Below are positions 585 through 53,745 of a DNA stretch of 64,000 nucleotides, one piece after another. Under the pieces are notes generated by a model that was given only the letters and a program-made list of their open reading frames with translations, did not search any database and was not told where the DNA came from. The translations under genes and the position numbers were made by a program. The number at the start of each line of letters is the position of its first letter. Positions within the stretch are counted from its first letter, which is position 1. The DNA is from Bacteroidales bacterium (GTDB taxonomy: Bacteria > Bacteroidota > Bacteroidia > Bacteroidales > UBA932), in the NCBI GenBank assembly GCA_017398335.1, contig JAFQGK010000021.1, positions 27,283 to 91,282 on the forward strand, written 5' to 3'.

Positions 585-1892
585 ATGCAGAAAGCAAGAC
601 TTACGTTCTGGCAGCTATGGAATATCAGCTTCGGATTCTTCGGAGTCCAGATTGCATATTCACTTCAGAGCGCCAACATCAGCCGCATTTTTGCGACTCT
701 CGGTGCGGACCCGCACAGTCTGAGTTTCTTCTGGATACTTCCTCCGCTTATGGGAATGGTAGTCCAGCCTCTGGTGGGCAAGTACAGCGACAGGACATGG
801 TGCCGGTTCGGCCGTCGTATACCTTACCTCTTCCTCGGATCGCTCATCGCCATTGCTGTGATGTGTCTTCTGCCGAATGCAGGAAACTTCAGCTTTACTT
901 TTGCCGGAGCCATGATCTTCGGACTTGTAGCCCTGATGCTCCTTGATACGTCCATCAATATGGCTATGCAGCCGTTCAAGATGCTTGTCGGAGACATGGT
1001 CAATGAAGAGCAGAAAGGTCAGGCATATTCAATCCAGAGCTTCCTCTGCAACGCAGGAAGCCTTGTCGGATATATCTTCCCGTTCCTTTTTGCGTGGATC
1101 GGCATTGCCAATACCGCACCGGAGGGACAGATTCCTGACACAGTGAAGTATTCATTCTATATCGGAGCATTCATCCTTATTCTTTGTGTGCTCTTCACGA
1201 CTTTCAAGGTGAAGGAGATGCCTCCGAAGGAATATGCGGAGTTCCATGGAATCGATCCGGATAGAAAGGAGGAAAAAGCTCCATCAATGTTTACCCTTCT
1301 CAAGAATGCACCTTCAGCATTCTGGACTGTCGGAATAGTGCAGTTCTTCTGCTGGGCCGCATTCCTTTACATGTGGACATATACCAACGGAGCCATTGCC
1401 GATACCGTCTGGGGCACGACTGACGTAACCTCGGAAGGATATCAGACAGCCGGCAACTGGGTAGGAATTCTCTTTGCTGTTCAGGCTGTCGGTTCAGTCC
1501 TCTGGGCTCTCGTCATCCCTAAGTTCAGGAATATCAAGACTGCATATGTGGTGAGCCTCCTTGTAGGAGCTGTCGGATTCGCATCTGTATTCTTCATTCA
1601 TGACCAGTATCTTCTGTTCATCTCCTTCCTCCTTATCGGAGTGGCATGGGCAGCGATGCTTGCGGTTCCTTTCACCCTCCTTACAAACTCGCTTTCAGGA
1701 GACCATATCGGAACATATCTCGGCCTTTTCAACGGAACTATCTGTCTTCCTCAGATTGTAGCTGCTGCATGCGGCGGACTGGTTCTCAAGCTTGTCGGTG
1801 GTGCGCAGGTAAGCATGTTCATAGTTGCAGGAGTGCTTCTGGTCCTTGGAGCTATGTCCGTTTATTTCGTCAAGGAAAAGAAGAAAGCTTAA
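585..1892 (+). CDS. SLC45-type MFS sugar (maltose/maltooligosaccharide) permease
   Basis: The 435-residue product is a polytopic membrane protein with about twelve hydrophobic segments and a short basic tail. After the second or third helix it has the motif SDRTWCRFGRRIPY (about residues 68-81), the SLC45/GPH form of the MFS loop 2-3 signature (SDR..GRRRPY). Proteins of this family import maltose, sucrose or other short glucosides across the inner membrane by cation symport. It lies 58 bp upstream of susC in the same direction and heads a run of starch genes, so import of maltose or maltodextrin released in the periplasm is the natural role. The exact substrate cannot be read from sequence. 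The ATG at 585 gives a good amphipathic N-terminus. Confidence 0.9.
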   Translation: MQKARLTFWQLWNISFGFFGVQIAYSLQSANISRIFATLGADPHSLSFFWILPPLMGMVVQPLVGKYSDRTWCRFGRRIPYLFLGSLIAIAVMCLLPNAGNFSFTFAGAMIFGLVALMLLDTSINMAMQPFKMLVGDMVNEEQKGQAYSIQSFLCNAGSLVGYIFPFLFAWIGIANTAPEGQIPDTVKYSFYIGAFILILCVLFTTFKVKEMPPKEYAEFHGIDPDRKEEKAPSMFTLLKNAPSAFWTVGIVQFFCWAAFLYMWTYTNGAIADTVWGTTDVTSEGYQTAGNWVGILFAVQAVGSVLWALVIPKFRNIKTAYVVSLLVGAVGFASVFFIHDQYLLFISFLLIGVAWAAMLAVPFTLLTNSLSGDHIGTYLGLFNGTICLPQIVAAACGGLVLKLVGGAQVSMFIVAGVLLVLGAMSVYFVKEKKKA

Positions 1893-1950
1893 TTGCTGAC
1901 ATATAAATATTTACAAATACAAACTATCTACTAACCAAACAAAATTCTTT

Positions 1951-4900
1951 ATGAATAGAATAATGTCGCTATGCGCAGCCTTCCTCCTGATTTTTGTCTC
2001 GGGGGGGGCATCCGTATTTGCTCAAAGCGGATACGAGGTTAAAGGAGTAGTTGTTGATGCAGTCGGTCCTGTAATCGGTGCTACAGTCATCGAACAGGGT
2101 ACCACCAACGGTACATCTACCGGCCTCGACGGAGACTACGTCCTTACAGTCTCAAGCGCCGACGCAGTTGTGGAAATAAGCTGCATTGGTTACGCTAGCC
2201 AGACTTTCAAGGCATCTCAGGTGCCTCCAACAGTCACTCTTTCCGAGGATACCCAGTTCCTTGATGAAGTAGTCGTTATCGGTTACGGTACCGTGAAGAA
2301 AGAGGATATGACTGGTTCAATCGTAGCTATCAAGAATGAGGAGATCAATCGTGGAGCGGTTGTGAATACTCAGGATATGCTCAAGGGTAAGGTTCCGGGT
2401 CTTCTCGTGACCCCAGGAGACGGTGGTCCTGGTTCGGGATCGAGAATCCGTATCCGTGGTGCAGCCTCCCTTTATGCATCAAGCGATCCTCTCATCGTTA
2501 TCGACGGTGTTCCGCTTTCTGCAGATGCAGGTTCAGGAATGTCCAATCCTCTTGACTTCGTCAATGCAAACGACATCGAATCATTCACTGTGCTCAAGGA
2601 TGCATCTTCAGCTGCAATCTACGGTTCACGTGCGTCAAACGGTGTCATCATCATCACTACCAAGCGTGGTAAGGGCAGCAGACCTCAGATCAGCTACAAT
2701 GGTAGCGTGAGCGTTCAGCATAATTCCAAGAGAATCCCTACTATGGATGCTGATGAGTTCCGTGCATATGTTGCTGAAACTTTCGATCCCGAGTCTACTC
2801 ATGGCAAGTTCGCCGCAACTCAGATCTTCGAGAACAATACTGACTGGCAGAGCCTTGTCTTCCGTCCTGCTATCTCTCACGACCACAACCTCAGCGTCAA
2901 TGGTAACGTGAAGGACCGTATGCCTTATCGTGCATCAATCGGTTACCAGGATCAGATGGGTACACTCTACGGTTCAAACTACGAGAGAGGAACAATGGAC
3001 ATCAGCCTTTCTCCTAACTTCCTTGACAAGCACCTCACACTCGACCTCAGCGCAAGAGGAGTGTATGTACACTCTGATTATGCAGAAGGCGGTGTAGTCG
3101 GAAAGGCTGCATTCTACAACCCTACCCGTGACCCATATTTCAGAAATGAGGACGGTTCCATCGACTTCACAACCAACAACGGTTACTGGGGTCCGGGAGC
3201 AGGTAGAGGCAAAGGCTTTACACCTAACAAGCTCGTTGGTGAGGGACCTCTTTCACTTCTCTATGACAAGTGGTCTTATGCAAACACTGCACGTTTCGTG
3301 GGTAAGGCTGCCATTGACTACAAGGTTCACGGTTTCGAGGCACTCCGTTTCAATGTTGCATTGAGCATGGACGTTTCTGAGAGCAAGTCTGCAAATGGTG
3401 TGAACCCTGGTTCATTCCAGGCTTACTCTGATGATGAGGCACTCGGACTTGGTAAGAATCACACAGGTTACAACAAGAACCTCAATGAGACTCTCGAGGC
3501 TTATGCTAACTTCAATGAGACTTGGGGCAAGCACAACCTTGACGTGATCGCAGGTTACTCATGGGTTCATAACTACTATGAGAATCATGGCGAGTCTTTC
3601 ATCAACGGTCAGGATACAGTATTCCTTAAGGATGGTGTAGACTACAATACAGCATATCCTTGGAGCAGAGGCGAGAACTATATGGTCTCATTCTATGGCC
3701 GTATCAACTATTCGATCGCTTCGAAGTATCTCTTCACTGCTTCTGTCCGTTATGACGGTTCTTCACGTTTCGCAAAGGACAATCGTTGGGGTCTTTTCCC
3801 TTCTGGAGCATTCGCTTGGAACATCAAGCAGGAAGATTGGCTTAAGGATACCAAGGCTGTGTCACAGTTGAAGCTCCGTCTCTCTGCAGGTCAGACAGGT
3901 CAGCAGGACGGTATCGCGAACTACTCTTACATGCCGATATACTATCTTTCAACAAATTCTTACGATCGTTACAACATGGGTAGCGCAGGTCTTCAGTACT
4001 ACTACACTCCAGGCAGCTATGATCCGGATATCACTTGGGAGACTACTACTACCTACAACGTCGGTGTAGACTTCGGTTTCTGCGATGACAGAATCACAGG
4101 TAATGTCGATGCATATGTCCGCAATACTTCAGACCTCCTCAATGAGGTGATCACACCGATGGGTGCGAACTTCGGTAACAAGATCCTTACAAACATCGGT
4201 TCTATGCAGAACAAGGGAGTTGAGTTCTCTCTCAACGTTGTTCCTGTACAGACCAAGGACTGGCACCTCTCGATTGGCTTCAACGGTACATTCCAGGATA
4301 CCAAGATCACCAAGCTCAACACTTCAGATGACCCAAGATATATGGAGCAGGTGGTGGATATAGAGAAGGGAACAGGATCCAAGTTCTCTTTCCATAAGGT
4401 AGGTTATGCTCCTTACACTTACTATCCATACCAGCAGCTGTATGATTCAAACGGCAATCCTATACAGAATGCTCTTGTTGATAGGGATGGTGATGGAAAG
4501 ATAACAGAGCTCGACAGATATGAGTCAGGTAAGAGCCCGATCCCGGGATTCTACTATGGTCTTAACCTCAAGCTTTCTTATAAGGACTGGGATTTCGGTC
4601 TCAACGGACACGGAAATGCTGATTACTGGATTTTCAATGACTTCGCTTCGGCGAACTCGACATCATCATTTGACGTGAACTCTGCTCTCCTTCCAAACTT
4701 CGCTACTGTAGTCAAGAGAACAGGCTTTACTAAACCTAACGAAGGTTACCAGTACTATTCTGACCTTTTCCTTGAGAATGCTTCATTCTTCCGTTTGGAT
4801 GACGTGAACCTCGGTTACACTTTCAGAGATGTAAGTGATTACAACGGTACAATCCGAGTCGCATTCTCAGCTCAGAACGTGTTTGTAATAACAAAGTATT

Positions 4901-5001
4901 CAGGAATCGATCCTGAGATCCAGGGCGGTAATAATGGTATTGATAACGTTATCTGGCCACGCCCACGTACTTATTCAATCCGTATTAACTTCACTTTCTA
5001 A
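1951..5001 (+). CDS. susC: SusC-family TonB-dependent outer-membrane maltooligosaccharide transporter
   Basis: A 1016-residue protein, usual SusC length. A signal peptide (residues 1 to about 25, ending VFAQ) precedes a carboxypeptidase-regulatory-like domain (about 30-105; VKGVVVD, DGDYVLTV), the TonB-box/plug start (LDEVVVIGYGTVKKEDMTGS), a plug with IRIRG and VLKDASSAAIYGSRASNGVI, and a long beta barrel ending in aromatic INFTF. There is no N-terminal STN domain, so it is not expected to signal through an anti-sigma factor. SusC imports glycans through the outer membrane with SusD as its lid, powered by TonB-ExbBD. Followed 12 bp later by susD. Starch specificity is inferred from the amylase and starch-binding neighbours. 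Confidence 0.95.
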   Translation: MNRIMSLCAAFLLIFVSGGASVFAQSGYEVKGVVVDAVGPVIGATVIEQGTTNGTSTGLDGDYVLTVSSADAVVEISCIGYASQTFKASQVPPTVTLSEDTQFLDEVVVIGYGTVKKEDMTGSIVAIKNEEINRGAVVNTQDMLKGKVPGLLVTPGDGGPGSGSRIRIRGAASLYASSDPLIVIDGVPLSADAGSGMSNPLDFVNANDIESFTVLKDASSAAIYGSRASNGVIIITTKRGKGSRPQISYNGSVSVQHNSKRIPTMDADEFRAYVAETFDPESTHGKFAATQIFENNTDWQSLVFRPAISHDHNLSVNGNVKDRMPYRASIGYQDQMGTLYGSNYERGTMDISLSPNFLDKHLTLDLSARGVYVHSDYAEGGVVGKAAFYNPTRDPYFRNEDGSIDFTTNNGYWGPGAGRGKGFTPNKLVGEGPLSLLYDKWSYANTARFVGKAAIDYKVHGFEALRFNVALSMDVSESKSANGVNPGSFQAYSDDEALGLGKNHTGYNKNLNETLEAYANFNETWGKHNLDVIAGYSWVHNYYENHGESFINGQDTVFLKDGVDYNTAYPWSRGENYMVSFYGRINYSIASKYLFTASVRYDGSSRFAKDNRWGLFPSGAFAWNIKQEDWLKDTKAVSQLKLRLSAGQTGQQDGIANYSYMPIYYLSTNSYDRYNMGSAGLQYYYTPGSYDPDITWETTTTYNVGVDFGFCDDRITGNVDAYVRNTSDLLNEVITPMGANFGNKILTNIGSMQNKGVEFSLNVVPVQTKDWHLSIGFNGTFQDTKITKLNTSDDPRYMEQVVDIEKGTGSKFSFHKVGYAPYTYYPYQQLYDSNGNPIQNALVDRDGDGKITELDRYESGKSPIPGFYYGLNLKLSYKDWDFGLNGHGNADYWIFNDFASANSTSSFDVNSALLPNFATVVKRTGFTKPNEGYQYYSDLFLENASFFRLDDVNLGYTFRDVSDYNGTIRVAFSAQNVFVITKYSGIDPEIQGGNNGIDNVIWPRPRTYSIRINFTF

Positions 5002-5013
5002 ACAGGACAGATC

Positions 5014-6708
5014 ATGAAAAGAACATTTAAGAACATATGTCTTGCTTTGACTTCATCTGTCATTGCATTTACGTCCTGCATCGGTGACCTTGATGTTAAT
5101 CCGTTGAATCCGACAGAAATGTCGCCGAATCAGGCATATGGATACTCTGTGGATTCATATCTCCAGGGACTTACAAAGATTTATTATTCATTCATCAATA
5201 CTAGCGGACTTAATGTGGCTGACGGTGGTGCTTCCGAGCTGATCAGAGCTTACTGGTCATGTCAGGAGGTTACAGCTGACGCCTGCAAATGTGCATGGAG
5301 CAATGACGCATGGGTACGTGCACTTAACACAAACACCTGGTCAGAGGCTCAGAATGATGCTACATATGCAGTTTACTGCCGTACAATCCTCGGTATTTCT
5401 TACGCAAACGAGTTCCTCCGCTCATCAACTGATGATCTTCTTGATGCAAGAGGTTGCGATGATGCTGTAAAGGCAAAGGTAAGACAGTTCCGTGCTGAGG
5501 CTCGTTTCATCCGTGCTTATCTTTACTGGATGGCAATGGATACATTCGGAAACGTTCCTTTCACAACTGAGGATTCACCTCTCGGTGGCGGTTTCGTTCC
5601 TACACAGGTTCCTCGTGCAGAGCTTTTCAACTATATTGTAGGCGAGCTCAAGGATATCGCTGCTTCTGGCGACATGCCGGCAGCTCAGTCTGATTATCCA
5701 CGTGCTGACATCGGTTCAGTATATGGTCTTCTTGCACGTCTTTACCTGAATGCTGAGGTTTACACAGCAACTGAGTTTGCTGCAGGTACTCCAATGTGGG
5801 CTGAGGCTAAGGCTGCCTGCGAGGAGATCTACAAGCTCGGCTATGCTATCTGTCCTGATTATGCAGCTCTCTTCCGTGGTGATAACGGTGAGAATGCTCA
5901 GGCTCGTGGAGAGTTCCTTTTTGCTGTTCCTTACGATGCTGAGGATACCCAGTCATATGGTGGTACAGGCTACCTTACATTCGCTGCTCTTGCTGCATCT
6001 GATGTAAATGACGAAACACTTGCCGAGGGCTTCCTCGCTCCTACAGGTATCAACAACGGTTGGGCTGGTATCCGTGTTCCGGATCCATATGTTCAGACAT
6101 ACTTCTCTCCTGCAGCTTACGACTTCGAGGCAGGTACATACTCGATCACTGACAAGAGAGGACAGATGTTCAACATCAAGGGACAGACTCAGGATATGGA
6201 ACTCTATACTTTCACAACAGGCTGGAAGTGTTGGAAATACAATAACTATCCTCACAACAAGGGTCCACAGGATGCTGATGCACTTGAGGTTGCAAGAACA
6301 AAGTCATACAGCGACATCGACTTCCCTCTCATCCGTCTTGGAGAGATCCACCTTATCTATGCAGAGGCATGTATGCACCTTGGTGCTGAGGCTCAGGCTC
6401 TTCCTAAGCTTAAGGAACTTGCTGAAAGAGCAGGTGTGACCCCGACAACAACCATCACTCAGGATTTTCTTGTTGCAGAGCGCGCAAGAGAACTTATGTG
6501 GGAGGCACATCGTCGTACAGACCTTATCCGTTACGGCATGTATGGTGGCAACACATCTTACTCTTGGCCATTCAAAGGCGGTGACAGTGCATACGGACAG
6601 ACATTCGAGAAGTACATGGAACTCTTCTCGATTCCTCCAACAGAGCTTGCTTCTAATGATAAACTCGTTCAGAATCCTGGTTATGTTGACGGTTCTGCCG
6701 CTGAATAA
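5014..6708 (+). CDS. susD: SusD-family starch-binding outer-membrane lipoprotein
   Basis: A 564-residue lipoprotein with a type II signal peptide; the lipobox FTSC gives Cys22, followed by IGDLD, an acidic stretch like the surface lipoprotein export signal of Bacteroidota. The SusD helical fold is seen in the TPR-like segment AEARFIRAYLYWMAMDTFGNVP (given here as key residues, about 165-186) and a C-terminal RARELMWEAHRRTDLIRYG motif typical of SusD/RagB proteins. It binds glycan over the SusC pore and acts as a hinged lid. It lies 12 bp after susC and 8 bp before the SusE/F-like gene, one transcription unit. Confidence 0.95.
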   Translation: MKRTFKNICLALTSSVIAFTSCIGDLDVNPLNPTEMSPNQAYGYSVDSYLQGLTKIYYSFINTSGLNVADGGASELIRAYWSCQEVTADACKCAWSNDAWVRALNTNTWSEAQNDATYAVYCRTILGISYANEFLRSSTDDLLDARGCDDAVKAKVRQFRAEARFIRAYLYWMAMDTFGNVPFTTEDSPLGGGFVPTQVPRAELFNYIVGELKDIAASGDMPAAQSDYPRADIGSVYGLLARLYLNAEVYTATEFAAGTPMWAEAKAACEEIYKLGYAICPDYAALFRGDNGENAQARGEFLFAVPYDAEDTQSYGGTGYLTFAALAASDVNDETLAEGFLAPTGINNGWAGIRVPDPYVQTYFSPAAYDFEAGTYSITDKRGQMFNIKGQTQDMELYTFTTGWKCWKYNNYPHNKGPQDADALEVARTKSYSDIDFPLIRLGEIHLIYAEACMHLGAEAQALPKLKELAERAGVTPTTTITQDFLVAERARELMWEAHRRTDLIRYGMYGGNTSYSWPFKGGDSAYGQTFEKYMELFSIPPTELASNDKLVQNPGYVDGSAAE

Positions 6709-6716
6709 TCTTTAAC

Positions 6717-9700
6717 ATGAGAAAAGTTATGAAATTTACTAAATATTTGGTTGGTTTGGCAGCATCAGCAGGTCTGCTGTTCGGCTGTCAGGAACTTGAG
6801 AAGGTTCAGATATGTGATCCTTCTGAGGTTGTTGCCCCTGTTCTCGCTGATGTGGCAGATATCTGCATCACTGCCGAGAATCAGTCGGAAATCGCAACAT
6901 TCACTTGGGATGCTGCAGATTTCGGAACAAAGGTAGCTGCAATCTATGCCATCGAAGCACAGTATGAAGATGGCGATCTGTATGAAGTCATTCCTGGTTT
7001 GAATGGAACGAAGACAGAGATTACTTATGAGATTCTCAACCAGAATCTCTACAATGGTCTCGGACTTCCTGCCGATACTTCGGTAGAGGTTGACTTCTTC
7101 GTGTCTGCCAGAGTCGGTGAGGGTAAGAAATATTACTCGGAGCCTGTAACTGTGAATGTTCAGGTGACTGCTGCTGCAAAGGTTTATCCTAAGCTCTTCA
7201 TCGTTGGTTCATACAACGGATGGTCACATGACAGGAACCAGTTCGTATTCGACTTCGACGGTAACGATGCTGTCTATAGCGGTATGATTGATTTCGGTGC
7301 GGATCACGCATCCAACGAGTTCAAGATCACCGGAGGAGCATGGGGAACTGATGAACATTCTATGGCTGAGGATCAGACTGCGGAGGCAGAGCAGATATCT
7401 CTCGTTGTAGGTGGCGGTGCCAACATCAATGCTTATCAGGCAAACCGTTATTATAGCCTCTCATTCATGAGGGAAGGACCGGCTCTTAAGGTTAACTTCG
7501 CTTTGAATTCACTTGGTATCAGCGGTGACTTCAACGGTTGGAGCTGGACTGAAATGACATTTGATTTCGCTTCCCAGAGATTCTACGCAGATATCGAGAT
7601 TCCTGCAGAAGGTGGTCTCAAGTTCCGCGAGTGTGCTGATAACTGGGACAAGAACTGGGGAACAGAAACCAAGTTCGATGAAGCAGTCGCTTCTAAGAGT
7701 GGTCAGCTCAATGGAGGCGAGAACATCAAGGTTCCTGCAGGTAACTACCGTATGTACCTTAACATGAACAATCCTGTCGAGCTCGTTTGGGAACTCAATG
7801 CAGATGATTTCGGTGCTGCAGCTCCAGAGGAGCCTACACCGGAAGTACCTGAGGTTCCGGCTCTCGAAGGATGGGGTGTCGTAGGTGACTTTACAGAGTG
7901 GGCTGACGGTAAGGATGCCATGATGACAGAGGTTGCCGGTCTTCTCGCTGCAAAGGGTATTGCACTCGAAGCAGGAAAAGGCTTCAAGATCCGTAAGGAT
8001 GGAAAATGGGATGAGAACAGAGGTGCCGAGGGTGATGTCGAGCCGTTCGAGGTTACTATCGGTGCAGCTCTCAAGGTAATCGCTGGCGGTAAGAACCTTA
8101 CAGTTCCGACAACCGGAGAGTATGATATCTATTATGACGAGGCTAAGGAGGAACTCTATGTTCTTGTAGCAGGTTCTGCTGTACCGGGAACAGACCTTGT
8201 GGCTTCCGAGTGGGGTATCGTAGGTGATATCAATGGCTGGGCTGCTCCGGACATCACTATGTACAATACTGAGACAGAAGGAATGTTCGCTGCATTCAAT
8301 GTCAACTTCAAGACTGATGGTGGCTTCAAGATCCGCGCAAACGGTGAGTGGAACGATGCAGCCAACTATGGTCTTGCAGCAGCTGGTGCAGTTGAGGCAG
8401 GCAAGTCTTATGACCTTATCTGTGGTGGCGGTTCTGGCAATATGAGCATCAAGGCCGGCATCTATGACATCTGGTTCGATCTTACCAATTCCAAGGTATA
8501 TATCCTTGAGCCAGGCAAGAAGCCTGCTGATGCTGAGGGTGGTGAGGTTGTAGTTCCTGACCCTACAGAACAGACATGGCATATCGTCGGTGACTTCAAT
8601 AATTGGACTGTGAACGATACCAACTATATTATGACTCTTGAAGGCGATTGGTTCGTGTTCAGAAACTTTACGACAGCTTCAGACACAGGACTTAAATTCG
8701 CTCCAGGTGCATGGAACGGAGACAAGGGCGGTAACAATGATGCTTTTGCTCTTGACACTGAATTTGCTACCGGAAGTGCCAATATCGCGGTTCCTGCCGG
8801 TACATACAATGTATATCTGAAGAAGGATCTTACAGTTTACAAGTTCACTGCAGCTGCCGATGCTCCTGCATTCGAGCCACAGGCTTCAGAGTGGGGTATT
8901 GTAGGTGCTGTGAATGGTTGGGCTGCTCCGGATGTGACGATGTACACGACAGAGACTAAAGACATGTTCGCTGCCAAGAATGTCAATATGCCGGCAGGCG
9001 AATTCAAGATCCGCGCAAACGGTGAGTGGAATGATGCCAAGAACTATGGTCTTGCAGCAGCAGGCACAGTCGAGGTAGGCAAGTCTTATGACCTTATCTG
9101 CGGAGGCGGTTCTCAGAATATGAACATTGCTGCCGGTACATATGACATCTGGTTCGATCTTGCCAATTCGAAGATATATATCCTTGAGCCTGGCAAGACT
9201 CCATCAGATTCAGAGGGCGGTGAGGTTGTGACTCCGGATCCTTCAGACGAAGTCTGGACTCTTGTAGGTGCATTCAATAATTGGCCGGGAACACCGGATC
9301 CCAACTATAATATGACAAAGGAGGGCAGCTGGTATGTATTCAAGGGATTCACAACAACAGGCGGTGAGATGAAGTTCTACTCTGGCGGTTGGTCAGTCAA
9401 CCGTGGCGGAACATTCACTGCAGTGAATGAGGCAGTCGCTCTTACAGATGGAGGTAGCAACATCAATCTTCCAGCAGGAACATACGATATCTATATGAAT
9501 GCTGCAAAGGATCAGGCTTACTTTATGGAACCAGGCAATTCTCCGATATCGGAAACAATAAAGATCATCTATAAGAATCCTGCAGGCTGGACTAATGTAA
9601 ATCTTTATGGCTGGGGTGATCTCAGCTTTGGAGAGTGGCCAGGTAAGCCTATGACAAAGGATGGTGACGTATGGGTATACGAACTTCCGAAGGATAGCAT

Positions 9701-9881: not shown

Positions 9882-12368
9882 ATGAAACGTATACTTGTTT
9901 TTTGTCTAGCGCTCATTGCAGTGCTTTCATGCGAGGATGTTAATCCAGTTGATGAAAATGTAGGAACGATTACGGTCACTCCTTCCGAAGTGGTGTTTGG
10001 CCTTGAGGGAGGAAAGGAGTACCTGACATTGACTCTCAATTCAAGTACAAAGCAATGGGAACTTATTCAGAATGAGGGAGCTGACTGGTGTGTGGCAAGT
10101 GCCAGAAACGGCAGGACATCCACAACCTTGTCGATAACCGTGCCGGAATATCTTGGCAATCCAAGAACCTCTGTACTTGAATTCACTTCTCCAGGCTGCG
10201 AACCGGCTGTCGTGAAGGTGATTCAGAGAGGAATCTCGACTGAACCGGTGCCGGCAGGAGCAGAACCGGGAATCAATTACAACGAAGACGGATCTGTTAC
10301 ATTCGTGCTCCTTGACCGTGATGCAGATGGAAAGTCTCATGACTATGCCTATCTGATCGGTGAGTTCAATGACTGGAAGACCTCTTCTGAATATGTCATG
10401 AATTGGGATGGTGCAGCAGGATGCTGGTGGTACACAATGACAGGAGTCAACCCTACAAAGGAATATATGTTCCAATACTATCTCGGTTACAAGGATGGCG
10501 AGGGACGTGCTTTTGCTGACCCGTATTCGGAAATCATATATGAGCCATACGACAGGTATATCACAAGCTCGACCTATCCGGGTCTGAGCGAATACCCGTC
10601 GTCTACAAAAGGAGCCGTATCTGCATTCAAGGTAAACAAGACGGAATATGACTGGGCGGTTGCGGACTATACGATTGAAGATATCAATGACCTGGTCATC
10701 TATGAACTTCATTTCCGTGATTTCACTGCAACCGGTGACATAAAGGGTGCAATGGCGAAGCTTGATTATATCCAGGCTCTCGGAGTGAATGCCATAGAAC
10801 TGATGCCTATTCATGAATTTGACGGTTCTGACAGCTGGGGATATAACCCTATCGCATTCTTTGCCCTTGAGAAGTCATATGGAACAAGGGAAATGTACAA
10901 GCAGTTCATCGACGAGTGCCACAAGAGAGGCATGGCGGTCATCATCGACGTGGTGTATAACCATGCACATGAGAACCATCCTATGGCTGGCCTCTATTTT
11001 GACTGGAGCAAATATAAGCCTACTGCAAATAACCCTTGGTTCAATGTAGATGCACCTCACCCTCACAGCGTATTCCACGATTTCAATCATGAGAACGCAC
11101 AGGTAAGAGCGTATGTAAAGAAGAGTCTTAAATACCTTCTTGACGAATACAAGGTGGACGGTTTCCGTTTCGACCTTACCAAGGGATTCACTCAGAAGAA
11201 AACCGGCAACGATGATGCTGCAGCTTCAGCATATGATGCTTCACGTGTGGCTATCCTTACTGATTACTGCACATACGTCAAGAGCGTCGATCAGAATGCT
11301 GTCGTAATCTTCGAGCATTTCGCAGATTCAGAGAACACCGCTCTTGCAAAGGCTGGTGCAAAAGTATGGAGAAAAGGTAACTGGGAGTATAGAAATGCCG
11401 TTCTTGGCGGTTCTGATAATTTCGGAAACATCTGGACCGGAAACGGTGACCTCTTTGGCGCATATGTAGGTTATATGGAGAGCCATGATGAGGAGAGAAT
11501 ATGCTTTGGTGCAGTCCAGGATGAAGAATCAGCTTCTGTTTCATGGGGTATCTGCGGAACCATCACCGACTGGTCGTCCGACATTACAATGACAGAGGAT
11601 AAGCCGTTCTTTGTCGCAAAAGGAGTTGCACTTGGCGCAACGGATATGTTCAAGATCCGTGGAAACAAGTCATGGAACGATGCTTATAATTATGGAGCAT
11701 CTTCAAAGGGCTACAAACTTCCGAAGAATGCTGGTTATTCGTTGACCTTAGGTGCGGCTTCACAGGATATGGCTGCTCCGGCTGCAGGAACATACGATAT
11801 ATATTTCAGCCCTGATGCAGCTAAGGTGTGGCTTATGGAAGCTGGCAAGAGACCGTCGGATTCAGAGGTCCCTGAGGTTGAGAATGAGGACCCTCTCGTA
11901 GTTGCGATGCGTCGTGCCGGTGCATGTGCGGCCTTCTGCTTCACTGTTCCTGGCCCTAAGATGATATGGCAGTTCGGAGAACTCGGATATGATGAGTCAA
12001 TAGAGGTGGGCGGCAGGACCGGAAGAAAGCCGCTTCATTGGGAATATTATGATGTACCGGCAAGAAAGGCTCTCTATGACACTTATTCTGGCATTCTTCG
12101 TTTCCGCAAAGAAAATCCGCGTTTCTTCGATAAGGATGCGGCCTTTTCATGGACTTCTTCCGGCACAGTGAAGACAATCAAGTGTACAGCGGATGGCAAG
12201 AGCTTCTGCGTCGTAGGAAACTTTGCAAAGGGTGTTCAGACAGTTTCTGTTACATTGCCGGCAGCAGGAACATGGACCAACTGGTTTGACAGCTCAGAGA
12301 AATTTACAGGCTCATCTCAGACCATCAAGCTCAAGGCCGGAGAATTCAAGCTCCTTGTAAACTGGTAA
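9882..12368 (+). CDS. BACON-GH13 alpha-amylase lipoprotein with a SusE-type module inserted in the catalytic barrel
   Basis: From the ATG at 9882 (preferred over 9870 because it begins the lipoprotein signal MKRILVF...VLSC, Cys17) the product has 828 residues. Order: BACON domain (about 26-115), CBM48-like beta-sandwich (about 129-265), GH13 barrel from about 268. The catalytic set is complete: DVVYNH, nucleophile Asp431 (GFRFDL), acid/base Glu478 (IFEHFA) and Asp536 (ESHDEE). About 17 residues later the barrel is interrupted (about 553-666, DNA 11540-11880) by a module homologous to modules 4 and 6 of the neighbouring SusE/F-like protein, after which the barrel resumes (MIWQFGELGYD) and ends in a beta domain. 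Cys17 is followed by EDVN, acidic as in surface lipoproteins. It is the best candidate for the surface endo-amylase role of SusG. Substrate preference (alpha-1,4 or alpha-1,6) is not certain. Confidence 0.9.
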   Translation: MKRILVFCLALIAVLSCEDVNPVDENVGTITVTPSEVVFGLEGGKEYLTLTLNSSTKQWELIQNEGADWCVASARNGRTSTTLSITVPEYLGNPRTSVLEFTSPGCEPAVVKVIQRGISTEPVPAGAEPGINYNEDGSVTFVLLDRDADGKSHDYAYLIGEFNDWKTSSEYVMNWDGAAGCWWYTMTGVNPTKEYMFQYYLGYKDGEGRAFADPYSEIIYEPYDRYITSSTYPGLSEYPSSTKGAVSAFKVNKTEYDWAVADYTIEDINDLVIYELHFRDFTATGDIKGAMAKLDYIQALGVNAIELMPIHEFDGSDSWGYNPIAFFALEKSYGTREMYKQFIDECHKRGMAVIIDVVYNHAHENHPMAGLYFDWSKYKPTANNPWFNVDAPHPHSVFHDFNHENAQVRAYVKKSLKYLLDEYKVDGFRFDLTKGFTQKKTGNDDAAASAYDASRVAILTDYCTYVKSVDQNAVVIFEHFADSENTALAKAGAKVWRKGNWEYRNAVLGGSDNFGNIWTGNGDLFGAYVGYMESHDEERICFGAVQDEESASVSWGICGTITDWSSDITMTEDKPFFVAKGVALGATDMFKIRGNKSWNDAYNYGASSKGYKLPKNAGYSLTLGAASQDMAAPAAGTYDIYFSPDAAKVWLMEAGKRPSDSEVPEVENEDPLVVAMRRAGACAAFCFTVPGPKMIWQFGELGYDESIEVGGRTGRKPLHWEYYDVPARKALYDTYSGILRFRKENPRFFDKDAAFSWTSSGTVKTIKCTADGKSFCVVGNFAKGVQTVSVTLPAAGTWTNWFDSSEKFTGSSQTIKLKAGEFKLLVNW

Positions 12369-12387
12369 AAACATTATATTTGCATAC

Positions 12388-14343
12388 ATGGTAAAATTAA
12401 GATATCTGGTGATGTCATCATTGGCTTTCATATCTTTGATGTCATGTAATTCCGGTACGGAAGCACTCCCGATTCCGGAAGCCCCTCTTGAAGAATGTGT
12501 TTATAAGGGAAGAAAGACAGAATTCACTGTGTGGTCTCCGGATGCGGAGGCCGCGCAGTTGCGTCTTTATCATTCAGCAACAGAAGAAACCCCATTCAGA
12601 ACTCTTGACATGAAGCTTTCAGAGAGTGGGCTTTGGAAAGCTGTTGTCAAGGAAGATGTCAAAGGGGCATTCTATACTTTCCAGGTTAAGAAAGGCGGCG
12701 AGTGGCTGCCTGAGACTGCCGGCATCGCTGCCAAGGCGGTCGGTGTAAACGGTTGGCGCGGAGCTGTGGTAGATTGGTCTGACACTGATCCTGAGGGATG
12801 GAATGATGATGTCAAACCAGTAGTCAGGCCTTCTGATATTATTGTATATGAGATGCACCATCGTGACTTCTCTATCCATCAGACTTCAGGAGTGAGCAAT
12901 AAAGGCAAATACCTTGCTCTTACTGAGCCGGGAACAAAGAATCCGGATGGTCTCGCAACCGGTATCGACCATCTTAAGGAACTGGGAGTCACTTATGTTC
13001 AGCTTCTCCCGTCAACGGATTTCATTACAGTAGACGAGGAGCATCTGGAGAAGAATCAGTATAACTGGGGTTATGATCCGTTCAACTACAATGCGGTTGA
13101 AGGATCGTATTCTACAGATCCATTCAATCCTGTAACCCGTATCCGCGAGTTCAAGCAGATGGTGCAGGCTCTTCACAAAGCGGGCATGAGGGTAATCCTT
13201 GATGTGGTATATAATCATACCACCAATGCTTCTCTAACAGGTTTCGAGCGCACAATGCCGGGATATTTCTATCGTATGCGTCCGGACGGAACTTTCTATG
13301 ATGGCTCAGGTTGCGGCAATGAGACCGCTTCAGAGCAGGCTATGTTCCGCAAATATATGATTGAGTCACTCGAGTGGTGGATGAAGGAATACCATATCGA
13401 CGGCTTCCGTTTTGACCTGATGGCAATCCATGATCTTGACACAATGAACGAGATCAGCGAAAGGCTCCATGCAATCGATCCTGATGTAGTGATTTACGGC
13501 GAAGGCTGGGCCGCTTCAGCTCCCGCTTTTCCTGAGGACAAGATTGCACTTAAGGTCAATACTCATATGATGGACAAGGTAGGAGCGTTCAGCGATAACA
13601 TCCGTGATGCTCTGCGAGGCCCGCTTGACTGCTCGAATGCAGGTTTTATGGACGGAGTCGAAGGAAACAAGGCGAATGTCGAGTTCGGTATCGTCGGTGG
13701 TATCGAGCATCCTCAGGTTTCCGTACCTTTCTGGACAAACAATCCTCTCCAGCATGTGAGCTATGCAAGCTGCCACGACGACCATTGTCTTCGTGATCGT
13801 CTGGAGGAAGCGACCGAAGCATCCGAGGAAGAGCGCCTGGCTATGATAAAACTTGCCCAGACCGCGGTGTATGTGTCTCAGGGTATACCTTTCATATTCA
13901 ATGGTGAGGAACTCTACCGTCATAAGCAGGGGGTCAAGAACAGTTATAACCAGCCTGACAGCATCAATGCGATAGATTGGACCTATAAGACAAGATATAA
14001 GGATCTCGTTGATTATTATGCCGCTCTTGCAGCAATACGTCACGAGCATCCTGGCTTCTGTCTCGGTGATGCAGCTCTTGTACGCGAGAAACTGTCATTC
14101 ATTGATGTGGATGACCCTTGCGTCGTGGCATTCAGGATCGAAGGTTTGAATGGAACAGATACAGCGAGGTCGCTTGTTGTTCTTCTCAACGGTTCCAAGA
14201 AACCGGTGAAGATAGATATACCGGCAGGCAACTATGTGGTACTTGCGCAGAACGGTGTGGCTGATCCTGACGGAATTGGAGCATCTTCCACCAGATACTG
14301 TACAGCTGCTCCGACCTCGGCGACAATCTTAGCTGAAATCTAA
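12388..14343 (+). CDS. pulA: Type I pullulanase (GH13_14-like) lipoprotein
   Basis: A 651-residue lipoprotein (lipobox LMSC, Cys20, followed by NSGTE). A CBM48-like N-domain (about 36-135) precedes a GH13 barrel with YNWGYDP, the hallmark of type I pullulanases, then DVVYNH, nucleophile Asp343 (GFRFDLM), acid/base Glu372 (YGEGWA) and Asp464 (SCHDDH). Such enzymes hydrolyse alpha-1,6 branches in pullulan, glycogen or limit dextrins. It has no acidic residues directly after the cysteine, so the periplasmic face is more likely than the surface. It starts 19 bp after the BACON-GH13 gene. TATATTTG at 12375-12382 resembles a -7 box but lies almost on the start codon and lacks a properly spaced TTG. 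Confidence 0.93.
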   Translation: MVKLRYLVMSSLAFISLMSCNSGTEALPIPEAPLEECVYKGRKTEFTVWSPDAEAAQLRLYHSATEETPFRTLDMKLSESGLWKAVVKEDVKGAFYTFQVKKGGEWLPETAGIAAKAVGVNGWRGAVVDWSDTDPEGWNDDVKPVVRPSDIIVYEMHHRDFSIHQTSGVSNKGKYLALTEPGTKNPDGLATGIDHLKELGVTYVQLLPSTDFITVDEEHLEKNQYNWGYDPFNYNAVEGSYSTDPFNPVTRIREFKQMVQALHKAGMRVILDVVYNHTTNASLTGFERTMPGYFYRMRPDGTFYDGSGCGNETASEQAMFRKYMIESLEWWMKEYHIDGFRFDLMAIHDLDTMNEISERLHAIDPDVVIYGEGWAASAPAFPEDKIALKVNTHMMDKVGAFSDNIRDALRGPLDCSNAGFMDGVEGNKANVEFGIVGGIEHPQVSVPFWTNNPLQHVSYASCHDDHCLRDRLEEATEASEEERLAMIKLAQTAVYVSQGIPFIFNGEELYRHKQGVKNSYNQPDSINAIDWTYKTRYKDLVDYYAALAAIRHEHPGFCLGDAALVREKLSFIDVDDPCVVAFRIEGLNGTDTARSLVVLLNGSKKPVKIDIPAGNYVVLAQNGVADPDGIGASSTRYCTAAPTSATILAEI

Positions 14344-15945: not shown

Positions 15946-17871
15946 ATGAAACGTATAATCACAGCACTGACCGTCATCCTTGCCATTGCGGCTTGTAAGG
16001 GCCCTGCTTTCGATCCTGCGACAGTAGCAGATGCAACAGCAGAGCAGGTCACCAGAGTTGAACCTCTTTCATGGTGGACAGGTATGAAGATGCCTCTCCA
16101 ACTCCTTGTTCAGGGAGATAATATATCAGAATACAGCGTCGCTGTGGAAGGCGGAGCCGGTGTGTCTGTGGAGAAAGTTACCAAGGCAGACAGTCCGAAC
16201 TTCCTTTTTGTTGATGTAAAGATTGCAGCAAATGCAAAGCCTGGTACATATTATGTCGTGTTCAGCAAGGATGGCGAATCTTTCAAATATCCATATGAAA
16301 TCGCTGCCCGTGAGGAAGGCTCTGCCGAGAGAAAGAGCTTTACTGCTGCAGATATGATATATCTCATAATGCCGGACCGTTTCGCGAACGGCGATACAAG
16401 CAACGACTCTACTGATGACACTGCCGACAAATATGCCCGTCACGAACTCTTCGGACGCCATGGCGGTGACCTTCAGGGAATCATTGACCATCTCGATTAT
16501 ATAAGCGAACTCGGCGCTACAGCCATCTGGTGTACACCTCTTCTCGAGGACAACCAGCCTGAGCACTCATATCACGGATATGCCTGCACAAACTATTACA
16601 AGATTGATTCCCGTTTCGGTACTAACGATCTTTTCAAGGAATATGTGAACAAGGCACACGAAAAGGATCTCAAGATAATCATGGATATCGTCCCTAACCA
16701 TGCCGGCTCTGCTCACTGGTGGATGAAGGACACTCCTTTCAAGGACTGGTATCATGTATTCGATACATATACAGGCTCCAACATCGCCTTCTCTACCAAT
16801 ATGGATCCGAATGCGTCGAAGAAGGACCTCTACATCCAGGAAAGCGGTTGGTTTGACCGCTCTATGGTGGATATGAATCTTGATAATCCATTTGTACTCA
16901 AGTATTTCCAGCAGTGGGCAATCTGGTGGATCGAGTGGTCTGGTCTTGACGGCTTCCGCGTGGATACATATCCTTACAACGAGAAGGATCCTATGTCCGA
17001 GTGGTGTGCGGCCGTAATGAACGAGTATCCGAACTTCAATATCGTGGGCGAGGTCTGGACAGCGTCTATCCCTCAGCTTGCATACTGGCAGGGCGGCAAC
17101 GCAAACAAGGATGGTTTCGATTCTCACCTCAAGTCTGTAATGGACTTCCCGCTTCATGATGCTCTTCGCGCAGGTCTCAATGAGGACTGGGGAGGATGGG
17201 GCCAGGGAATGGTCCGCGTCTATGATATCCTGTCGCATGACTTCGTATATCACGACCTTTCAAACATGATGATCTTCCCTGGAAACCATGACACTGACCG
17301 TCTCGGTGATGTTCTTCGCAAGAATCCTAAGCGTGTAAAGATTGCCATGGCAATGATGGCCACCATGCGAGGATATCCTCAGATCTTTGCCGGTGACGAA
17401 CTCATGTTCACATCATGCGACCTTTCAATGGGTCACGGCGGTCTCCGTGTTGACTTCCCTGGCGGATGGCCTGGAGATGAGATGAACCTCTTCACGGATG
17501 AGGGACGTCGTGCTGCGACAAAGAATACAGACGGACTTACAGTGCCTCAGGGACAGGCTGCCGACCTCTTTGACTATGTAAGCCACCTCTTCCAGTGGAG
17601 AAAGACCAAGGACGTCATCCACAACGGAAAGACAATGCATTTCATCACACGTGACAATACATACGGATATTTCCGTTATAACGACAAGGATGTTGTCTTT
17701 GTATATGTCAACAACTCAAACGAACCGAAGAATATCCCTTGGAGCTACTACTCTGAGATATCGGAAGGTCTTGCAGGTGGTGTGAATGTAGTCACCGGTG
17801 AGCCTTGTGAGGTCTCAGATGCTACTGTCGCCGAGCCTCAGTCAATACTTATCGTAGAATATAACAGATAG
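15946..17871 (+). CDS. susA: SusA-like neopullulanase / cyclomaltodextrinase-type GH13 lipoprotein
   Basis: A 641-residue lipoprotein (lipobox IAAC, Cys17, followed by KGPAF). A neopullulanase-type N-terminal beta domain (about 28-125) precedes the barrel, which begins AADMIYLIMPDRFANGD. Catalytic residues are Asp340 (GFRVDTY), Glu369 (VGEVWT) and Asp449 (GNHDTDR), with DIVPNHAG as conserved region I. Domain order and length match SusA of Bacteroides (about 617 residues), which breaks imported maltooligosaccharides, pullulan or cyclodextrins in the periplasm. Type A and B REP-like repeats lie on both sides. The name rests on architecture; another maltogenic activity is possible. Confidence 0.88.
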   Translation: MKRIITALTVILAIAACKGPAFDPATVADATAEQVTRVEPLSWWTGMKMPLQLLVQGDNISEYSVAVEGGAGVSVEKVTKADSPNFLFVDVKIAANAKPGTYYVVFSKDGESFKYPYEIAAREEGSAERKSFTAADMIYLIMPDRFANGDTSNDSTDDTADKYARHELFGRHGGDLQGIIDHLDYISELGATAIWCTPLLEDNQPEHSYHGYACTNYYKIDSRFGTNDLFKEYVNKAHEKDLKIIMDIVPNHAGSAHWWMKDTPFKDWYHVFDTYTGSNIAFSTNMDPNASKKDLYIQESGWFDRSMVDMNLDNPFVLKYFQQWAIWWIEWSGLDGFRVDTYPYNEKDPMSEWCAAVMNEYPNFNIVGEVWTASIPQLAYWQGGNANKDGFDSHLKSVMDFPLHDALRAGLNEDWGGWGQGMVRVYDILSHDFVYHDLSNMMIFPGNHDTDRLGDVLRKNPKRVKIAMAMMATMRGYPQIFAGDELMFTSCDLSMGHGGLRVDFPGGWPGDEMNLFTDEGRRAATKNTDGLTVPQGQAADLFDYVSHLFQWRKTKDVIHNGKTMHFITRDNTYGYFRYNDKDVVFVYVNNSNEPKNIPWSYYSEISEGLAGGVNVVTGEPCEVSDATVAEPQSILIVEYNR

Positions 17872-17873
17872 AG

Positions 17874-20200
<2,327 letters not shown>

Positions 20201-51108: not shown

Positions 51109-53745
51109 ATGGATAAAAAGACAAAAGATATGACTTCAAAAGAGATTAGAAAAGCTTTCTTGGACTTCTTTGCTTCAAAGGGCCATCAGATTGTGCCTTC
51201 TGCACCGATGGTTGTAAAGAATGACCCTACGCTGATGTTTACGAATGCAGGAATGAACCAGTTCAAGGACTGGTTCCTTGGAAACAGTCCTGCCAAATGG
51301 AAAAGAGTTGCCGACAGCCAGAAATGCCTCCGCGTGAGCGGAAAGCACAACGACCTTGAAGAAGTGGGACGTGACACATATCACCACACGATGTTCGAGA
51401 TGCTTGGCAACTGGAGTTTCGGAGATTATTTCAAGGATGAGGCGATTGATTGGGCTTGGGAACTTCTGACTGAAGTGTACAAGCTGGATAAGGACAGACT
51501 CTATGCAACAGTGTTCGAGGGTTCGGAGGCTGATGGTACCAAGCTTGACGTTGAGGCGATGGAAGCATGGAAGAGACATCTTCCGGAAGACCGTATCCTT
51601 CTCGGCAACAAGAAGGATAATTTCTGGGAAATGGGTGATACAGGCCCTTGCGGACCATGCTCCGAGATACATATTGACCTGAGAAGCGATGAGGAAAGAG
51701 CAGCTGTTCCGGGTGCTGAACTTGTCAATAAGGACCACCATCTTGTAATCGAGATATGGAATAACGTGTTCATGCAGTACAACCGCAAGGCAAACGGCGA
51801 ACTCGAACTTCTGCCGAACAAGAATGTGGATACAGGAATGGGCTTCGAGCGTCTGTGCATGGCTCTTCAGGGCAAGAAGTCCAACTATGACACTGATGTC
51901 TTCACCGGAATGATCGCGAAGATCGAGGAACTTTCGGGACACAGATACGGGGTGAACGAGCAGGAGGATATCGCTATGCGTGTAATCGCCGACCATATCC
52001 GTGCGATCAGCTTCTCTATCGCAGACGGACAGCTTCCTTCAAACGTGAAGGCCGGATATGTTATCCGTCGAATTCTCCGTCGTGCGGTCCGATATGGATA
52101 TACCTTCCTTGGTTTCAACGAACCTTTCCTCTGCCGTCTCGTGCAGCAGCTCGTAGATGATATGGGTGAGTTCTATCCTGAAATCGTAAAGCAGCAGACT
52201 CTCATCGAACGAGTGATCAAGGAAGAAGAGATGGCTTTCCTCCGTACACTAGACAGAGGTATCCGCCTGATGGACAATATTATGGCGAAATCTGCAGAGA
52301 CAAAGCTGATCTCGGGCGAAGATGCCTTCGTGCTTTATGACACTTTCGGATTCCCTATTGACCTTTCGGAACTTATCGCTTCTGAGAAAGGCTATAAGAT
52401 CGATCTGGAGGGTTTCCAGGTGGAGCTTCAGAAACAGAAGGACAGGGCGCGTAATGCAACGGCAATCGAGTCAGGTGACTGGGTTGAGTTCGCTCATTGC
52501 GACAATATTGAATTCCTCGGATATGATGCTACCGACCTCGAAGGTGTGCAGCTGACCCGCCATCGTACCGTAAAGGCAAAGAACAAGACCATGTATCAGC
52601 TCGTGTTCGAGCGTACGCCGTTCTATGCGGAGATGGGAGGACAGGTAGGAGATACAGGATATATCCTCTCGGAAAGCGGTGAGAAGATACAGATCGTCAA
52701 CACAATCAAGGAAAACAATCTTACCATCCATGTGGCGGAGCGTATCCCTGCAGACTGCACCGAAAGCTTCAGCCTTCATGTCGACGTAGAAAGAAGACTT
52801 CAGATTGAGAATAATCATACGGCAACCCACCTCCTTCATCAGGCTCTCCGCGAGATTCTCGGAACCCATGTGGAGCAGAAGGGATCCTTCGTATGCGATA
52901 AATATTTCCGTTTCGACTTCTCGCATTTCGAGAAACTCAGCGATGAACAGATTGACCTCGTGGAGAACCGCGTGAATGCACTTATAAGGGCTAATAATCC
53001 TCTCGATGAAAACCGGAATGCAACAATGGAAGAGGCTCAGGAGATGGGGGCGATGGCTCTGTTCGGAGAGAAGTACGGAGATACTGTCAGAGTGGTGAAG
53101 TTCGGAGATTCATGCGAACTCTGTGGAGGTACACATGCTGCCGCAACAGGACAGATCGGCTTCTTCAAGATTGTTTCAGAGTCTGCGATCGCAGCTGGAG
53201 TACGCCGTATAGAGGCGACGACTGGTGTACATGCTGAACTTCTCGTGGACGGCATGGAAACTACTCTGCGCGTCGCCAAGGCTTTCTTCAACAACGCTCC
53301 GGATCTTGCTGCCGCAATCAGGAAGATGGTCGAGGAGAACGAAACCTACAAGAAGCAGATGGAGGAGATTGTGAAGGAAAAGACAGTGACTCTCAAGAAC
53401 GGTCTCAAGACAATGGGCAAGGATATTAACGGAGTGAACGTTGTGTCCATTGACTACAGCGTGGATCCGGTCATGCTCAAGAACGCTGCATTCATGCTCC
53501 AGAAGGAGGCACAGAATCTTGTGATCGCCGCAGCATTCGAGGCGGCAGGTAAGCCTCAGCTTCTTCTTATGTATACCGAGGACCTCGTAAAGGCCGGACA
53601 CAATGCTGGTGCCGATGTCCGTGAAGCTGCCAAGCTCATTCAGGGTGGCGGTGGCGGACAGCCTGGTCTTGCAACCGCAGGTGGAAAGAATGTCGACGGA
53701 CTTAAGGATGCTCTTGCAAAACTTATCGACTCTGCTGTTAAATAA
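51109..53745 (+). CDS. alaS: Alanyl-tRNA synthetase
   Basis: An 878-residue class II synthetase of normal length. Class II motifs ([15 protein letters not shown], GCGxG-type [17 protein letters not shown]) lie in the first 250 residues, the editing domain has [13 protein letters not shown] and [16 protein letters not shown], and the C-terminal DHHA1-type domain ends [14 protein letters not shown]. It charges tRNA-Ala and clears Ser-tRNA-Ala. Met8 (51130) is an equally good start. It heads a rightward unit with almost no gaps up to the sigma factor. Confidence 0.97.

Follow-up and report, generated by a model that had tools for sequence, protein, structure and literature searches.

A SusE/SusF-type module within the catalytic barrel of a Bacteroidales surface amylase and its probable exchange between amylase genes

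How does a starch-degrading enzyme come to have its catalytic barrel interrupted by a segment resembling the binding lipoprotein encoded next to it? The question is raised by a stretch of 64,000 nucleotides from a Bacteroidales bacterium of the lineage UBA932 (GenBank assembly GCA_017398335.1, contig JAFQGK010000021.1, positions 27,283 to 91,282), here called the window, which encodes, in a single open frame of 832 aa, an amylase of glycoside hydrolase (GH) family 13. We suggest that this protein is a surface amylase of a Sus-like locus, built on the GH13_47 plan and holding, in the loop between strand beta 7 and helix alpha 7, an internal carbohydrate-binding module (CBM) of the SusE/SusF type that is a putative starch binder. 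We would give this reading, drawn from sequence comparison, a probability of about three in four.

Site and spread of the insert

An alignment by phmmer to the solved chain 8dge pairs aa 126-550 of the window amylase with 8dge residues 156-571 and aa 680-831 with residues 585-735, leaving between the two blocks 129 residues in the window amylase versus 13 in 8dge. The insert itself comprises about 116 aa and starts 13 residues past D540, the third catalytic Asp, which lies on beta 7, while the sequence directly after it, VAMRRAGACAAFCFTVPGPKMIWQFGE, represents helix 7 and strand 8 by the established GH13 topology, from which the secondary-structure names beyond the insert are assigned. Because D540 of beta 7 precedes the insert and helix 7 and strand 8 follow it, the loop in question joins beta 7 to alpha 7 and belongs to the catalytic face, and the alignment confirms that a SusE/SusF-type module interrupts the barrel at this point. 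A preliminary description of this DNA had placed the insert at 11540-11880, right to within a few codons of the edges found here (11526-11873), and about 17 residues after the third catalytic Asp, which overstates the distance; it was correct that the site, following that Asp, is unlike the one in domain B occupied by CBM58 of SusG. It had also credited the enzyme with a complete catalytic triad, and D435, E482 and D540 are indeed all invariant in a 60-row alignment (A1), its Asp431, Glu478 and Asp536 being the same residues counted from the inner ATG at 9882 rather than along the 832-aa frame. In printed alignments, PDB chains 8dge and 8dl1 differ at the catalytic Glu (E to Q).

The best solved relatives of the enzyme are the chains 8dge, 8dl2 and 8dl1 of BoGH13A_Sus (E 4.7e-133 and 1e-132), followed in the PDB ranking by 8xx9 and 8xxa, which are named only alpha-amylase, and then by a drop to 6.8e-33. 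BoGH13A_Sus, or BoSusG, belongs to GH13_47 (PMC11633381). As judged from these alignments, the closest characterized relatives over the barrel and domain C are GH13_47 enzymes, and alpha-amylase activity tolerating alpha-1,6 branches is stated for two members of that subfamily (PMC11239784). Although the region preceding the barrel aligns with the CBM48 of BoGH13A_Sus, Pfam CBM_48 gave no match in the window amylase.

The architecture recurs, always at the one site, in 27 of 108 distinct homologous rows (loci are given L numbers and genomes G numbers below). A core of 106 merged rows, which is 114 frames less eight identical copies, divides into 23 with a complete insert (134-148 aa between fixed flanks), two with an incomplete one and 81 without (22-43 aa); the two incomplete rows, with 86 residues between the flanks in L029 (contig end) and 81 in L030 (short), have the sole lengths between both classes. 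The other two rows, L124 and L125 from G203 and G461, were added by way of the module itself and hence are not a random draw. In L030 (minus strand, ORF 985-3681) the insert is shortened in frame, with the join between two similar short stretches, as could arise by deletion or by assembly collapse. Two simpler accounts were ruled out: a loop common to the subfamily, given that 81 of the 106 distinct rows have just those 22-43 residues between the same flanks, and a chimeric assembly, given that the same join recurs in many separate records.

Within the window's genus, 31 of 200 genomes, the window's included, hold the amylase at E 1e-60 or better, 13 of them with a complete insert and two with an incomplete one (in G123 a contig end truncates it, in G183 it is shortened), as judged from match span and fetched loci. 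Across the order a GH13 match at that threshold is present in 196 of 393 genomes, and among the matches listed all but the window's own end by query residue 567. Of 29 loci fetched order-wide, which are not part of the count of 27 in 108, 19 have 40-58 residues between the motifs and 10 miss a motif; in none of the 29 does a module match fall inside the GH13 frame. An insert-profile scan found eight of the 393 order genomes at E 1e-8, again with the window's included; the other frames are presumably SusE/F-like. Family-wide, a joint profile of inserts and SusE/F-type modules matched 51 of 299 genomes, and the three examined in detail (G203, G461 and G464) yielded two insert-bearing amylases and one SusE/F-like frame, such that further insert-bearing amylases may exist among the other matches. 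G203, from another genus of the same family, is the only locus with a group code outside the window's genus. The named insert-bearing records are metagenome-assembled genomes, mostly from ruminants and other herbivores where the source is stated, and the group may correspond to Cryptobacteroides. The insert had no match in a plasmid collection.

Kinship and putative function of the module

The preliminary description had noticed a likeness of the insert to modules 4 and 6 of the neighboring SusE/F-like lipoprotein, and this is borne out, the two best matches being the fourth and sixth of seven. The insert shares 45, 42 and 33% identity with the modules at lipoprotein residues 720-834, 493-608 and 382-496 (E 5e-25, 8e-22 and 2e-15), or 48, 44 and 33% in a search of its own genome, and the best module score of 86.3 bits compares with a maximum of 26.9 bits for 200 shuffled inserts, scored without composition correction. 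When 23 inserts were compared by hhalign with 28 SusE/F-type modules, which had been chosen by an insert profile, the two groups aligned at a probability of 100 and E 2.6e-41 over near full length. The joint profile also reaches solved SusF (E 7.7e-5 for the whole chain, and 1.6 and 0.12 for its two domains singly, neither of which passes) and, weakly, SusE (E 0.017) and the CBM58 region of SusG (E 0.08), while Pfam SusF_SusE matches two of the 23 inserts (best E 1.6e-4). At the level of sequence, these comparisons establish the kinship of the insert with SusE/F-type modules. In the SusE/F-like protein of G203 (L124, 1135-4341, plus strand), four consecutive modules reach 96-114 bits against the insert profile, near the top of the range for SusE/F-type modules; these four group together and not with the inserts.

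The additional claim that the module belongs to a different family from CBM58 is unsupported as worded, for an insert-only profile has as its top solved match the CBM58 region of SusG (E 0.041). The CBM58 family of Pfam, PF20756, has no match in the window insert and weak matches in nine of 23 inserts (best E 0.0064); L044 scores 20.7 bits against a cut-off of 24, and a CBM58 profile of three sequences (L173-L175) aligns by hhalign over about 50 columns at a probability of 82 with the inserts and 58 with the joint profile. A remote relationship to CBM58 is possible, but not established.

With aa 551 numbered as 1, residues W9, W18, K45, R47, W52 and N57 are identical in 23 of 23 inserts in one alignment (A4) and 21 of 21 in another (A3). 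The residues at three of these positions are common in 37 SusE/F-type modules, with Trp at W18 in 35 (two gaps), Trp at W52 in 33 (four gaps) and Lys at K45 in 33 (four Arg), and the conservation fits a putative ligand platform that has been retained. A mapping onto AMPK-type residues (W100, K126 and W133) may be considered, but the weak AMPK matches of the joint profile (E 0.19 and worse) do not establish it. In SusG, W287 and W299 stack on glucose (PMC5735674); by the offset that we worked out for the insert-only profile alignment, SusG W299 falls on W52, and W287 has no Trp partner.

The case for a binding function also draws on what this amylase lacks. Its alignment to 8dge begins only at residue 156 of the latter, leaving the first ~155 residues, those of CBM98, without a partner, whereas that of L045, which also has an insert, begins at residue 28. 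Judged by aligned residues, and for L045 alone also by comparison with the PDB chain, 24 of the 27 insert rows have the N-terminal CBM98-like stretch; the three that lack it are the window, L057 and L023, of which the last is truncated. Of the 81 rows that have no insert, L117 alone lacks the stretch, and its frame is short. BoSusG binds maltooligosaccharides through its CBM98 but not through its CBM48 (PMC11633381). Since the window amylase has no CBM98-like stretch, the insert is the main candidate for its starch grip. We envisage that the module would bind alpha-glucan via W18 and W52, that the chain would be held on the catalytic side of the barrel, and that the enzyme would in this way grip starch that SusD and the SusE/F-like lipoprotein present to it.

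It is conceivable, although we consider it unlikely, that the module no longer binds starch and acts as a spacer or docking surface that places the amylase against SusCD or the SusE/F-like lipoprotein. A GH26 enzyme was no less active once its internal CBM112 had been deleted, with no effect either way, and the authors of that study suggest that the module serves in positioning (PMC13357471); in the same vein, W104, found in 21 of 21 inserts versus 4 of 37 SusE/F-type modules, could be an interface residue. However, the Trp and Lys residues common to SusE/F-type modules are retained in every aligned insert, which a pure spacer need not keep, and deletion of CBM58 from SusG lowered activity on insoluble corn starch, even if the deletion mutant was the most active form on other substrates (PMC5735674).

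Exchange between genes and origin of the insert

The inserts and the barrels that carry them do not tell the same history. A subset of inserts, here called flavor B, comprises those of L051, L023, L049, L052 and L054 and the partial ones of L029 and L030; the five complete ones group with support of 100/99 in the module tree and 91/82 in an insert-only tree. When the seven flavor B rows are held together on barrel data, the cost is 100.8 log units and the grouping is rejected (p-value of the approximately unbiased test, p-AU, 0.00229). Conversely, a 15-row barrel clade held together on insert data is rejected (p-AU 0.000149), as are the pairings L053+L051 (1.1e-6) and L045+L046+L051 (1.3e-4); the tested groups were named after the inserts or trees had been seen, and all these p-values are hence somewhat flattering. 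Over 300 pairs, the correlation with barrel identity has an r of 0.83 for the identity of the CBM48-like part and 0.74 for that of domain C, but 0.37 for that of the insert.

The conflict can be followed along a single gene. L051 is 94-95% identical to L045 over aa 401-546 and 96% over aa 669-690, but only 55% in the insert; its identity to L049 is 59% over aa 401-480 and 55% over aa 481-546, yet 81% in the insert, and then 80% over aa 669-690 and 89% over aa 691-760. Both comparisons thus show a similar right flank, and the exchanged piece is less sharply bounded on this side than on the left. In five of five triplets, which were hand-picked, all contain L049 and are not independent, the switch of likeness starts at aa 553, and in each none of 10,000 permutations reaches the observed run. 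Because insert and barrel trees conflict in both directions and likeness switches at aa 553, we conclude that the module has probably been exchanged between amylase genes.

A similar conflict between trees could come about in the absence of exchange, by differential sorting of old gene copies or by odd rates in the inserts. This we judge improbable, and somewhat more so than loss of binding. The module offers only some 118 columns and several long branches, and the SIG154 genome does hold two insert-bearing copies (L047 and L087). Rates alone, however, hardly explain how L051 can be like L045 over the barrel and like L049 over the insert with a switch at aa 553, and of three control triplets two showed no such run (1290 and 681 of 5000 permutations reaching it), the third being borderline (87 of 5000).

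With regard to origin, barrel data place all insert rows in one group together with a few rows without insert (five such at a support of 98, four at 100/97), which one gain with losses or two gains may explain. Module data are compatible with a single source: trees in which all inserts are held together are better than the free trees by 8.6 and 1.1 log units (p-AU 0.684 and 0.538, the second after removal of 20 partial or long-branched rows). Of the 22 other inserts, 13 are 63-69% identical to the window insert and the remaining nine 39-54%. A single old capture from the SusE/F-type family would fit these data better than a recent local copy, which is unlikely because those 13 stand at 63-69% identity and because a single clade of all inserts is not rejected. 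The transfer within the locus favored by the preliminary description is accordingly not borne out, those 13 inserts from elsewhere being closer to the window's than the best module of the neighbor at 45%. That the module was copied into the window amylase from the adjacent susE/F gene within this lineage is thus very improbable, despite the adjacency, the 45% identity, a similar style of inter-module linker (G-K-x-P-S/A-D) and the nine inserts no nearer than the neighbor's module, for, in addition, the own-locus module is the best SusE/F-type match only for L124 among 25 inserts. In nine of these 25 the own-locus module was off the list, either because the set did not include it or, in the window's case, because it was filed under the locus identifier L011; in the L011 listing, module 6 of the neighbor came second for the window insert, at 45%.

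We posit, then, an ancient capture, most simply a single one, of a SusE/F-type module into a loop of an amylase barrel, since when the module would have been passed between amylase genes by recombination at or near the linkers while the barrel stayed in place. We lean, if not strongly, toward regarding the module as an exchangeable cartridge, that is, a SusE/F-type capture beside the active site that is swapped between amylase genes of gut Bacteroidales at or near its linkers, with grip and barrel recombined and selected separately; as part of the same proposal, two independent captures of related modules, at different barrel loops, may have occurred in the GH13_36 SusG and in the GH13_47 group.

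Several observations weigh against this account as a whole. Pfam recognizes no family in the window insert by itself, and SusE and SusF are absent from the solved-chain matches of the insert-only profile up to E 10. Position 83 is Asn in 29 of 37 SusE/F-type modules versus Asp in 15 of 21 inserts, and binding could have changed; the CBM112 deletion, likewise, means that grip in the service of catalysis is not a given. The right end of the switched segment varies between triplets (651, 658, 670, 755 and 626, the last in a row cut by a contig end), and one control triplet came close to a positive. In G+C content the insert (0.484) is no different from the rest of the gene (0.470). Holding the insert rows as one clade on barrel data costs 15.8 log units (p-AU 0.065), which leaves a single gain borderline, and the free module trees contain no clean insert clade, one having a stray SusE/F row inside it and the other leaving the L056 insert outside on a long branch.

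Locus context, known systems and significance

The window brings together susC, susD, a binding lipoprotein, a GH13 amylase predicted to be at the surface and a GH97 gene (Table 1), the combination of a Sus-like starch polysaccharide utilization locus (PUL). We take the N-terminus of the amylase to be a lipoprotein signal whose lipobox would lead to export to the surface. In 15 insert-bearing loci, picked by their flanks out of the 27 insert rows, susD lies upstream of the amylase gene in 15 and a SusE/F-like gene was found by BLAST in 14, and a surface role of the insert-bearing amylase fits this context. Downstream of the amylase, 11 of these 15 loci (L045-L054 and L056) have a second susC-susD pair, where the window has a pullulanase instead. 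In the SusE/F-like lipoprotein the first of the seven module matches is weak (1.3 bits, i-E 0.02), and the 77% identity between modules 4 and 6 points to a recent duplication within that gene.

Table 1. Features of the window discussed in the text (positions count from the first nucleotide of the window; residue numbers refer to the 832-aa frame).
Feature	Position	Strand	Basis
MFS-type transporter	585-1892		our own reading of the ORF
SusC/RagA TonB-linked transporter	1951..5001	+	TIGR04056, E 1.2e-224
SusD	5014..6708	+	PF07980, E 1.8e-32
SusE/F-like lipoprotein, 1032 aa	6717..9815	+	Pfam SusE 5.1e-11; C-terminal CBM26 5e-14; seven module matches
Module 4 of the lipoprotein	8193..8540	+	42% identity with insert
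Module 6 of the lipoprotein	8874..9218	+	45% identity with insert
GH13 (GH13_47-like) predicted surface amylase, 832 aa	9870..12368	+	Pfam Alpha-amylase 2.3e-29; likely true start 9882
Lipoprotein-type signal peptide ending VLS-Cys21, then acidic residues (E-D)	9882..9932	+	read from sequence
BACON domain, aa 68-119	10071..10226	+	PF13004, E 2.7e-6, 27.7 bits (cut-off 25)
Pre-barrel region, aa 126-270, read as CBM48 of BoGH13A_Sus	10245..10679	+	phmmer alignment to 8dge
Barrel, first part, aa 272-550, with D435, E482, D540	10683..11519	+	8dge alignment; invariant columns
Inserted SusE/F-type module, aa 553-668	11526..11873	+	module identity; hhalign; likeness switch at aa 553
Barrel remainder (alpha 7, beta 8, alpha 8) and domain C, aa 680-832	11907..12365	+	alignment to 8dge 585-735
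Type I pullulanase	12388..14343	+	TIGR02104, E 2.8e-217, above cut-off
Second GH13 enzyme, 405 aa	14608..15825	+	PF00128, E 6.9e-37
Cyclomaltodextrinase/presumably SusA-like GH13	15946..17871	+	Cyc-maltodext_N and _C above cut-off
GH97, presumably SusB-like	17999..20200	+	Pfam GH97, E 1.1e-98

Away from this locus, at 53745-56204 on the plus strand, a single frame of 820 aa joins an LptF/LptG lipopolysaccharide-export permease to a methionyl-tRNA formyltransferase. Among 24 other genomes of the genus, 21 have matches to the frame that start at its residue 1, 2 or 16 and extend to at least 723, two have no match and one has a match only at a contig edge. The two halves lie apart, by contrast, in 11 of 16 genomes that represent other families of the order.

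We note that an internal CBM in a PUL surface enzyme is known in itself, having been reported for SusG, GH10 and GH26 enzymes (PMC5735674, PMC7848910, PMC13357471), and that the exchange of the module is the most interesting part of the present case. The window amylase shares with BoGH13A_Sus of Bacteroides ovatus (8dge/8dl2) its plan from aa 126 to the C-terminus, its catalytic residues and its place as a Sus-type surface amylase, but the latter has only 13 residues after beta 7 and an N-terminal CBM98 that has no counterpart here. SusG of B. thetaiotaomicron is likewise a GH13 surface amylase with a starch-binding module inside its catalytic domain, and its CBM58 may be remotely related; it differs in that CBM58 sits in domain B of a GH13_36 enzyme and its relationship to the insert is weak. 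The modules of SusE and SusF, in turn, are sequence relatives of the insert but stand in tandem in a lipoprotein, whereas the window insert is a single copy inside an enzyme, with W104 and, in most inserts, Asp at position 83. The GH10 xylanases Xyn10C and Pm25, with an internal pair of CBM4, and GH26 mannanases with an internal CBM112 are also PUL surface enzymes with intercalated CBMs, for other glycans and with other CBM families (PMC7848910, PMC13357471). CBM112 is also part of putative surface glycan-binding proteins encoded by PULs with GH26 genes (PMC7848910, PMC13357471), and this sharing by GH26 enzymes and PUL binding proteins is, by analogy, a close parallel to the present insert. 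The passages drawn on from the GH10 and GH26 papers make no mention of an exchange of internal modules (PMC7848910, PMC13357471), and among the titles and opening lines of abstracts listed by literature searches none names a SusE/F-type module in a GH13_47 barrel, a beta 7-alpha 7 site for it or its exchange between enzymes.

The reason for the internal layout of CBMs in PUL surface enzymes is poorly understood, as stated in the discussion of PMC13357471. The amylases described here form a natural series for this question: barrels that contain the module (27 rows) or lack it (81 rows), one shortened insert, closely similar barrels with different modules (L051/L045 and L053/L029), and two amylases that keep the inner module without a CBM98-like stretch (the window's and L057). 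Such natural pairs allow a direct test of the part played by an internal module in starch capture, and they show how a binding lipoprotein and a neighboring enzyme can come to share one putative type of grip.

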